Positions 31,080 through 33,522 of a DNA stretch of 39,290 nucleotides are shown in pieces (position 1 is the stretch's first letter; each line of letters opens with the position of its first letter). Made by a program: the position numbers and the translations under genes. Source of the stretch: Propionibacteriaceae bacterium. Lineage in GTDB: Bacteria > Actinomycetota > Actinomycetes > Propionibacteriales > Propionibacteriaceae. The notes under the pieces are model-generated. The model did not search any database. It was given only the letters and a program-made list of their open reading frames with translations, and had not been told where the DNA came from. Where the stretch lies: the NCBI GenBank assembly GCA_021323255.1, contig JAJTCL010000008.1:1-39290 (forward strand), in the 5' to 3' direction.

Positions 31080-31113
31080 GTCCGACAAAATCCGAGCAGA
31101 AGGGTTGAGGTTC

Positions 31114-31135
31114 CGTAACCTGTTTGTTATCTTTC
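31114..31135 (+). promoter_or_regulatory. direct-repeat candidate operator upstream of M23 gene 1
   Basis: CGTAAC, five bases, TGTTAT, then CTTTC: two six-base half-sites 11 bp apart. The same arrangement (CGTTAT, five bases, CGTTAT, TGTTTC) lies at a similar distance before the second M23 gene. Direct repeats with 11-bp phasing are the usual pattern for OmpR-type response regulators; MtrA controls cell-wall hydrolase genes in actinobacteria, so it is a reasonable guess. Confidence 0.4.
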
Positions 31136-31206
31136 TCCAGTTGTCTGGCCTACTTCGGGGGTCCAGTCAAAGACGGAACTAGATCAGACAAACAGTTGGC
31201 GCACAC

Positions 31207-31254
31207 ATCCAGCAGGGTTCCCTCCGCTGGATGCCGACTCGGGCCGTGGCCCGA
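31207..31254 (+). promoter_or_regulatory. two adjacent hairpins in the leader of M23 gene 1
   Basis: Hairpin A: ATCCAGC (31207-31213) pairs with GCTGGAT (31226-31232), and inside it AGGG/CCCT pair around TT. Hairpin B: TCGGGCC (31239-31245) pairs with GGCCCGA (31248-31254), loop GT. Hairpin B ends a few bases before the AGGTG that could serve as ribosome site, so it could limit translation start. Confidence 0.45.
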
Positions 31255-31270
31255 TCAGGTGCCAGCACCA

Positions 31271-32362
31271 GTGAGGATGAGGGAGCTGTCCGGGGAACAG
31301 CAGACCGAACGCGAGTGGGATCCAGACGTCAGTGCTGGAGACGCGCCCCAGGCCAGGGCGGCCTGGCTGAGAGACATATTCGCCGCCTTGTGCATCTCTG
31401 GCCTGGGCCTCGTGGTTGCAGCGTCCGTAGGCCTAACGACCAAAGCGGAGACTACCGAAAATGGGTTGACCGCTCTGCCCGAGACTTCCTCGGCGGTCGT
31501 AGTGGCTGCCGACAAGAAGCAGTCGACCACCGAGACTGGTGCGCTGGCTGTGTTCGCACCGCCGGAGACATCGGTGACTGATCGCCCGGCCAGGACTGCC
31601 GACCTCCAAGTCGCGATGGTGAAAGAGCAGGCTGCCCAGCGAGATGAGCTGCTGGCCAAGACAGCCGAGGAAGTCAGTCGAGCTGGGAGAGCGGCCAGCG
31701 GTGAGGCGCGGCAGAAGGACCTTACCGATGCGGACCGGGCGATTCGCGAAGCCGGAGCCCGAATCGCGGCTGAGAACCTGCGTCGGGCAACCGCTGCTCG
31801 AGTGGCTGCGGCGAACCGGCGGCAGGCCGCAGAGAGCGCGTCGGAGGATCATGAAGCGGCTTCCGGGTCAGACCGCGGAAACACCGATAGCAGTTCTGGT
31901 GGCGGGTCTACCGGCGGTGGTGGGTCGGGCAGCGGTGGAGGTTCCGGCGGTGTGGCGCCGGTGCTGGGTGCCGTGATTGGTTCCCACTTTGGCGAATACG
32001 GGAGTTGGTCGCGCTATCACACCGGGATTGATTTTCGTGCCGCGCATGGCACACCGATTCGCGCCGTGAGGTCTGGGGTGGTGCTCTACGCCGGCAACTC
32101 CGGTAACTGGGCGGGCAACCATGTCGCGATCAAGCACGGGGATGGCATGACCACCATGTCCTCGCACATGTCCTCCATGGCGGTCAGGGCTGGCCAGCAT
32201 GTGCAGGCGGGGGAGGTCATCGGTCGCGTCGGCCAGACCGGACGGGCCTTCGGCGCTCACCTGCACTTCGAGCTTTACCCCGCGGGTGTCAAGTACGGGG
32301 ACGTCTACCGGGCCATCAATCCGCAACCATGGCTCCGGGCCAGTGGAGTCACAACCCACTGA
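31271..32362 (+). CDS. M23 (LytM-type) metallopeptidase, membrane-anchored, paralogue 1
   Basis: Predicted cell-wall peptidase cutting peptidoglycan cross-bridges outside the membrane. With the GTG at 31271 it has 363 residues: short cytoplasmic part, one helix (about 37-55, AALCISGLGLVVAASVGL), an Ala/Glu/Arg-rich, probably coiled-coil segment (about 110-205), a Gly/Ser linker (SSGGGSTGGGGSGSGGGSGG), and the M23 domain. Zinc ligands are H250 and D254 in RYHTGIDF and H332 in GAHLHFE, with H330 as catalytic partner. GTG 31259 and ATG 31277 are alternative starts; upstream residues of the open frame are not coding-like. About 190 bp of leader carries hairpins and a candidate operator. The next gene is a close paralogue. 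Confidence 0.87.
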   Translation: MRMRELSGEQQTEREWDPDVSAGDAPQARAAWLRDIFAALCISGLGLVVAASVGLTTKAETTENGLTALPETSSAVVVAADKKQSTTETGALAVFAPPETSVTDRPARTADLQVAMVKEQAAQRDELLAKTAEEVSRAGRAASGEARQKDLTDADRAIREAGARIAAENLRRATAARVAAANRRQAAESASEDHEAASGSDRGNTDSSSGGGSTGGGGSGSGGGSGGVAPVLGAVIGSHFGEYGSWSRYHTGIDFRAAHGTPIRAVRSGVVLYAGNSGNWAGNHVAIKHGDGMTTMSSHMSSMAVRAGQHVQAGEVIGRVGQTGRAFGAHLHFELYPAGVKYGDVYRAINPQPWLRASGVTTH

Positions 32363-32497
32363 TCTCTTCGGAGCAACCAGCGGACCGCAGCGAGCTCTAA
32401 ATATCGTGCAACGGGCGATGAGCTCGGAATCAACTCCCGAGATTTTCATCACATTGCGAAAAACACGCGCCAAACTTGCCGAGATCAGCTTGCGTCG

Positions 32498-32520
32498 CGT
32501 TATGCATCCGTTATTGTTTC
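32498..32520 (+). promoter_or_regulatory. direct-repeat candidate operator upstream of M23 gene 2
   Basis: CGTTAT (32498-32503), five bases, CGTTAT (32509-32514), then TGTTTC: a perfect six-base repeat with 11-bp phasing, matching the site before M23 gene 1. It lies about 115 bp before the GTG start. The 272-bp spacer 32363-32634 otherwise shows no clear structure; I looked for a ydaO-type riboswitch and did not find its conserved core. Confidence 0.45.
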
Positions 32521-32634
32521 GGGCAGCGTCCACCGTTTGAAGTCAAAACGCGGGCCTCCAAGCAGACCATCAAAGACTTGTGCTGCGGCAGAGGCAGGAC
32601 TCGGGGAACCTGTCGTCGTGCGAGGAGATTTGGA

Positions 32635-33522
32635 GTGCCCAACTCGTCGTCGGAGCGCACTTTTGCGCGTCGCGCGTTGATCGAGGACATCAGAGAAGAC
32701 CGGAGAAGCTGGCTACGCCACGGGGTGGCAGCGCTCGCGGTGTCGTTTCTGGGACTTGGCGTCGCGGGATCAGTGGCCCTAACGGGTGCGGCACAAAACA
32801 CCACATTGACGGCAACGGTAGCGACGAACGATCTTGTCAAAAAGACCAGCCGCGCGGCCGAGCGGCCCAGCCTCGACCCGGCGAGGATCAAAAGCATCGC
32901 TGACCAGCGGGACGAGGAGCTCAGCAAGATCGGTGCCGAGGTACTTGAGGCCTCCATGGACAGCTCGGAGAAGGCCCGCGCCAAGGCTCTCCAGGAGCTC
33001 TCCGACTCGACGCGGCGTCAAGCCATACTGCTCAAACGCGGGCAGGCCAAGCGCAGCGATTCGCCGCCACCTGATACGAACACGGGCTCTGGTGGCGGCA
33101 GGGGCTGCCTGCCTATTCGGAGTGGCTACAGCATTGCTGCCGGCTTCGGCCAGGTCGGTCCATGGTCGCGTTACCACACCGGCTTGGACTTCTCCTCTCC
33201 CGTCGGTACCCGGTTGTACGCTCCTGCCGCTGGGGTCGTGACCAATGCCGGGATTGGACGAGCCAGCGGCTGGGCCGGTAACTATGTCGCAATTAAGCAC
33301 GCGAATGGCACCCACACGCTGCTGGCGCATATGTCCAACGTCTCGGTCCGCCTGGGCCAGAGTGTGTCGGCCTGCCAGAACGTGGGAGCGGTTGGCATGA
33401 CAGGAAGGACCTTCGGGGCCCACGTTCACTTCGAGGTTTACCCCCCTGGTGTGCAACCCGGTGACATCTACCGTGCGATCAACCCAGTGCCATGGCTCAG
33501 GGCCCGCGGAGTCAACCCCTAG
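32635..33522 (+). CDS. M23 (LytM-type) metallopeptidase, membrane-anchored, paralogue 2
   Basis: Same plan as the preceding gene in 295 residues: cytoplasmic N-terminus (VPNSSSERTFARRALIEDIR), one helix (GVAALAVSFLGLGVAGSVAL), a charged helical region with repeated Glu/Ala/Lys, a much shorter linker, and the M23 domain with RYHTGLDFSSPVGT, LLAHMSNVSVRLGQ and GAHVHFEVYPPGVQ giving the H-x3-D and HxH zinc site. The two domains share the ending DIYRAINPxPWLRA-GV, so they are a tandem duplication that has lost or gained the Gly-rich linker. The GTG at 32635 has AGGAG nine bases upstream, a clear start. It converges with pcrA across 17 bp. Confidence 0.9.
   Translation: MPNSSSERTFARRALIEDIREDRRSWLRHGVAALAVSFLGLGVAGSVALTGAAQNTTLTATVATNDLVKKTSRAAERPSLDPARIKSIADQRDEELSKIGAEVLEASMDSSEKARAKALQELSDSTRRQAILLKRGQAKRSDSPPPDTNTGSGGGRGCLPIRSGYSIAAGFGQVGPWSRYHTGLDFSSPVGTRLYAPAAGVVTNAGIGRASGWAGNYVAIKHANGTHTLLAHMSNVSVRLGQSVSACQNVGAVGMTGRTFGAHVHFEVYPPGVQPGDIYRAINPVPWLRARGVNP

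Follow-up and report, generated by a model that had tools for sequence, protein, structure and literature searches.

Two tandem genes for M23 peptidases are each preceded by an 11-bp-phased direct repeat in the 39,290-bp stretch of DNA analysed here (the window, which corresponds to contig C105 in a draft Microlunatus genome of 3.37 Mb, family Propionibacteriaceae). This raises the question whether the two repeats are a regulatory signal or a coincidence and, if they are a signal, which protein would read it and whether the genes would be switched on or off.

A direct repeat inside a predicted core promoter

Re-reading of the sequence confirmed both repeats as described in the first-pass annotation. 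All features are on the forward strand. The first repeat consists of CGTAAC (31114-31119) and TGTTAT (31125-31130) separated by five nucleotides and followed by CTTTC (31131-31135), and the second of CGTTAT (32498-32503) and CGTTAT (32509-32514), again with N5 in between and followed by TGTTTC (32515-32520). The reported distances to the likely start codons, about 135-141 bp for the first gene (GTG at 31271 or ATG at 31277) and 114 bp for the second (GTG at 32635), were also found, and homology search identified both downstream reading frames as M23 peptidases and paralogues of one another. The first gene encodes 361 residues from the ATG (31277-32362; PF01551, 1.1e-30), and the second 295 residues from a GTG that follows GAGGAG (32635-33522; PF01551, 2e-25). 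Where the first gene starts is uncertain because the closest relative (L007, 1490-1510) has no ATG, GTG, or TTG at that position. The pair is flanked by an alpha/beta-hydrolase gene on one side and a convergent pcrA/uvrD helicase gene on the other.

The two leaders had been thought to have nothing else in common, which is wrong: both have the TTG of a putative -35 element (at 31105 and 32490) as well as the sixth T of a putative -10 element. In the first leader, the proposed MtrA-type box GTAAC-N6-GTTAT (31115-31130; half-sites 31115-31119 and 31126-31130, period 11) lies between the predicted -35 element TTGAGG (31105-31110) and the predicted -10 element TATCTT (31128-31133), which are 17 bp apart, and runs into the latter with its second half-site. 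The second leader has the same arrangement with a spacer of 16 bp, in which the proposed box GTTAT-N6-GTTAT (32499-32514; half-sites 32499-32503 and 32510-32514), with TCC ahead of the second half-site, follows the predicted -35 element TTGCGT (32490-32495) and overlaps through its second half-site with the predicted -10 element TATTGT (32512-32517). Transcription would be expected to start near 31140 and near 32524, respectively.

These assignments are based on the columns conserved in 35 M23-linked sites. Conservation extends over a unit of about 29 bp, TTG-N6/7-GTTAY-NNNTCC-GTTAT-NNT, with information, counted from the first half-site, in TT(G) at -10 to -8, GTTAY at 0-4, TCC at 8-10, GTTAT at 11-15, and T at 18, and with near-zero information in the flanks. 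Conservation of GTWAY/GTTAY is partly circular because these letters were used for site selection. The genus and family sites were selected irrespective of the TTG and the sixth T, which were included in the class-wide pattern that yielded one further site (L238). Of the 35 sites, 32 have a TTG at 16-18 bp before TATNNT and 34 have the sixth T of TATNNT. The composite can be read as a -35 element (TTGNNN), a spacer of 16-17 bp, and a -10 element (TATNNT), a layout in which the repeat would sit inside the core promoter and TATNNT would share its TAT with the second half-site. Of the 119 distinct GTWAY-N6-GTTAY sites collected, 50 have both -35 and -10 signals, and an M23 gene lies downstream of 32 of these versus 3 of the 69 others (Fisher p 6e-13, in a sampling that leans to M23 loci). 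A scan for the sigma70 consensus (TTGACA/TATAAT, 9 of 12), which is too strict for TTGNNN/TATNNT promoters, gave no match. Concerning the earlier proposal of an OmpR-family operator, the type of site stands, with MtrA as the best candidate, but its place has to be revised: the box would form the spacer and the -10 of a promoter instead of an upstream operator, and this position predicts repression rather than classical activation.

An RNA element in the leaders was considered and rejected. Neither the c-di-AMP riboswitch (ydaO) nor any other known riboswitch matched at the Rfam gathering threshold, and the sub-threshold matches were at chance level. The leaders did not fold better than shuffled sequences (z -1.7 and +0.9), and the length from repeat to start codon varies between genera from about 56 to 134 nt while the promoter element is constant.

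The candidate regulator and the sign of regulation

We propose that each M23 gene would be transcribed from a sigma70-type promoter (TTGNNN, 16-17 bp, TATNNT) whose spacer and -10 are built over the 11-bp-phased direct repeat GTTAY-NNNTCC-GTTAT, and that this repeat would be bound by an OmpR-family response regulator as a dimer, with MtrA as the most likely one. Bound between -35 and -10, MtrA~P would cover about -32 to -11 and exclude RNA polymerase, and both peptidase genes would be repressed together, as has been reported for mepA of Corynebacterium glutamicum. A drop in MtrB signalling, such as might accompany osmotic or envelope stress, would then derepress them. We consider it probable that a promoter-embedded MtrA box represses both M23 genes in this way; promoter use, MtrA as the binder, and the sign are what we infer from the comparison of sequences.

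The window's genome encodes a single protein above the cut-off of the MtrA model NF040689 (on contig C471), and its DNA-binding domain is nearly identical to that of MtrA from M. tuberculosis (2GWR), including the recognition helix. The first approximately 18 residues of this gene are missing or replaced in the draft assembly, with an in-frame TGA just before the conserved part (L245, about 2020-2250), which may reflect either a fault of the assembly or a genuine disruption. Both M23 boxes have direct GTnAY-type half-sites with a period of 11 bp, as have the MtrA consensuses of three genera, and the predicted boxes lie in promoters of MtrA target classes (M23 here; Rpf, antigen-85-like, and M23 elsewhere). 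The C. glutamicum site is (A/G)TAACAATttn(A/G)TAACAAT, with positions near the -10 meaning repression and activator sites lying upstream of the -35 (PMC3353115). The MtrA-repressed genes mepA, nlpC, and rpf2 of this species (PMC9599347) resemble the present case in their cell-wall peptidase and Rpf products, the RTAAC half-site, the 11-bp period, and the overlap with the -10. In contrast, the half-site here is GTTAY, the second copy is preceded by a conserved TCC, and each of two tandem M23 genes has a predicted site. The MtrA sites of S. coelicolor include one over the -10 of bldD (PMC5650626), which is likewise a GTnAC-type repeat linked to repression, but the target is a developmental regulator and not a hydrolase. 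In M. tuberculosis, MtrA binds cGTnAYc repeats with the same spacing (PMC6265350), and its targets fbpB, ripA, and the rpf genes belong to the same classes as the class-wide matches to the composite (antigen-85-like, Rpf); this likeness is one of gene class, and MtrA can also act positively in that species. Counting against MtrA, a CUT&Tag study in Dietzia reported another motif for it that is rich in TCG. A limited literature search found no MtrA target in Propionibacteriaceae. The M23 promoter box would be a well-supported further case of the known MtrA-type site and not a new system, and it makes MtrA control in this family a testable prediction at the level of sequence.

It could also be that MtrA binds the same site and activates, either because the true -10 is located further downstream or because polymerase is recruited from the spacer. 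Some hydrolase genes of other genera are activated by MtrA; such genes are among its targets in M. tuberculosis and Dietzia, and one of those in Dietzia is reported to be directly activated. A further point against repression by MtrA is that the composite also precedes genes for a DctP protein and for serine proteases. However, the conservation of the sixth T and of the TTG at 16-18 bp would have to be explained, there is no conserved sequence downstream where another -10 would sit, and the reported activator sites are upstream of the -35, which makes activation rather improbable.

The repeat might also be read by another OmpR-family protein such as GlnR, an AfsQ1-like regulator, or another response regulator. 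GlnR boxes can be GTnAC-n6-GTnAC (PMC10704036), so that GlnR/AfsQ1 boxes have nearly the same consensus and spacing, and the window's genome encodes 16 further response regulators that match the MtrA model, all below the cut-off. What makes this unlikely are the genes behind the composite. Searching 395 actinobacterial genomes with TTGN7GTWAYN6GTTAYNNT gave 14 matches versus 2 in the control, and these include the window's M23 locus, another M23 gene (L238), an Rpf with LysM (L228), three antigen-85-like mycolyltransferases of one genus (L229-L231; the first has PS1, Cmt1, and Ag85C as PDB relatives), and assorted others. Three independent gene classes among these matches belong to reported MtrA regulons. 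GlnR and AfsQ1 differ in having nitrogen or secondary-metabolism targets, of which there are none among the composite matches; in particular, no nitrogen-assimilation gene was found downstream of the matches examined. Palindromic matches (GTAAC...GTTAC at the ArsR-type genes L225 and L232, and L235) are a separate kind, and an inverted-repeat reading was set aside.

Returning to repression by MtrA, the 29-bp composite singles out wall-remodelling promoters among hundreds of genomes with very low background. Tentatively, it might represent a promoter grammar of its own, in which -10 and MtrA half-site are one and the same sequence and which has been kept across Actinomycetia specifically for wall-remodelling genes (M23, Rpf, mycolyltransferases), its strong form having become restricted to one M23 locus in Propionibacteriaceae. 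If this were true, no gene set in this family would be under tighter MtrA control than the M23 locus.

Conservation and specificity of the box

The pattern GTTAY-N3-TCC-GTTAT (GTTAYNNNTCCGTTAT) has 21 matches in 20 Microlunatus genomes, every one of which was traced individually to a downstream M23 gene, and the reversed control has none. When loci were fetched by protein homology and not by the motif, almost all Microlunatus again had GTTAY-NNNTCC-GTTAT upstream of the M23 genes, the most divergent sites being that of the window's first gene (GTAACCTGTTTGTTAT) and that of its nearest relative. Six genomes, including the window's, have the box before both M23 genes, nine others before the second gene only, and a few have a single M23 locus with a single box. 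The only genome without any box (G013) also lacks a close homologue of the M23 locus. The claim that the two enzymes are one regulon is therefore consistent with the window's species and five relatives but does not extend to the nine Microlunatus that keep the box at the second gene only. Five Microlunatus loci (L009, L012, L015, L018, and L024) have a dyad like GTACCACT-N6-AGTGGTAC shortly before the -35 of the second M23 gene, which is absent from the window and its nearest relative and could be either a terminator of the first gene or a second operator.

In 198 Propionibacteriaceae genomes the core repeat alone has background matches. Among 40 stretches fetched from this family, matches with both promoter elements precede M23 genes (L185, L189-L194) with few exceptions, which are a DctP binding protein gene (L186) and genes for an alpha-lytic-type protease (L205, L206). 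L194 is cut off by the end of its contig and is a probable M23 gene by its N-terminus, which matches the M23 gene of L185. The composites of L205 and L206, both from Microlunatus, have an 18-bp spacer, and the protease is a secreted one. Could the element be nothing but a strong promoter, inherited through tandem duplication, with a GTTAY in the spacer that no protein binds? The two M23 genes are paralogous and the element has a good -35 and a good -10, but across genera with nothing in common in their flanks, the GTTAY and TCC of the spacer reach about the same conservation as the -10, and the same spacer motif is present before unrelated envelope genes in other families. This explanation is thus very unlikely.

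That the two leaders resemble each other by chance could be argued from the window, where 50% of the leader pairs in a pattern-free simulation with the same composition had an 11-phased repeat of equal quality in common and the window alone therefore proves little, but with 21 of 21 genus-wide matches at M23 genes and none in the control this is refuted and chance has become next to impossible. The repeats are confirmed as real by sequence comparison, with phylogenetic footprinting being decisive. For the fixed pattern GTWAY-N6-GTTAT, the probability of a chance match is 2.5e-4 in the first leader and 6.5e-4 in the second, and the whole 3.37 Mb genome has only three exact matches, two of which are the M23 leader sites. 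The third, on contig C99, is apparently at the start of a transporter-like gene and beside an inverted GTTACCAG/CTGGTAAC pair.

The genome was also scanned for the motif, as had been suggested. Weaker boxes than those of the M23 genes, of the form GTnAY-N6-GTnAY, are present on the same strand within 200 bp upstream of an rpfB-like and an NlpC/P60 gene (P about 6e-5 for two of the three rpf/NlpC genes), but there is no such box at the second rpf gene (C456) or on the other M23 contigs of this genome. The rpfB-like box (C133:5175-5190, GTTATGATTTCGTGAC) is about 70 bp before a GTG, and a TATGAT overlaps its first half-site. The NlpC/P60 box (C435:7512-7527, GTGATCTAATCGTGAC) lies between TTGCAC and TAGGGT, which are 17 bp apart. 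A loose MtrA pattern is not enriched genome-wide (145 matches versus 136 in the control), and the composite is useful for mapping MtrA regulons where such loose consensus scans are unenriched.

The core repeat alone is unspecific. Its matches in a different genus of the family are mostly LacI-type operators and a site near dnaB. Several core-repeat matches (L154, L156, L157, L161, L165, L178, L181) are located beside LacI-type regulators or sugar-binding proteins, and these probably represent LacI-type operators with a resemblance to the motif. In eight other species of the family (L162, L163, L164, L166, L171, L174, L177, L179), a gene for a dnaB-like helicase is preceded at about 140-245 bp by a conserved GTTATMAAAHCGTTAT-like repeat, and DnaA-box-like sites are present near some of these repeats.
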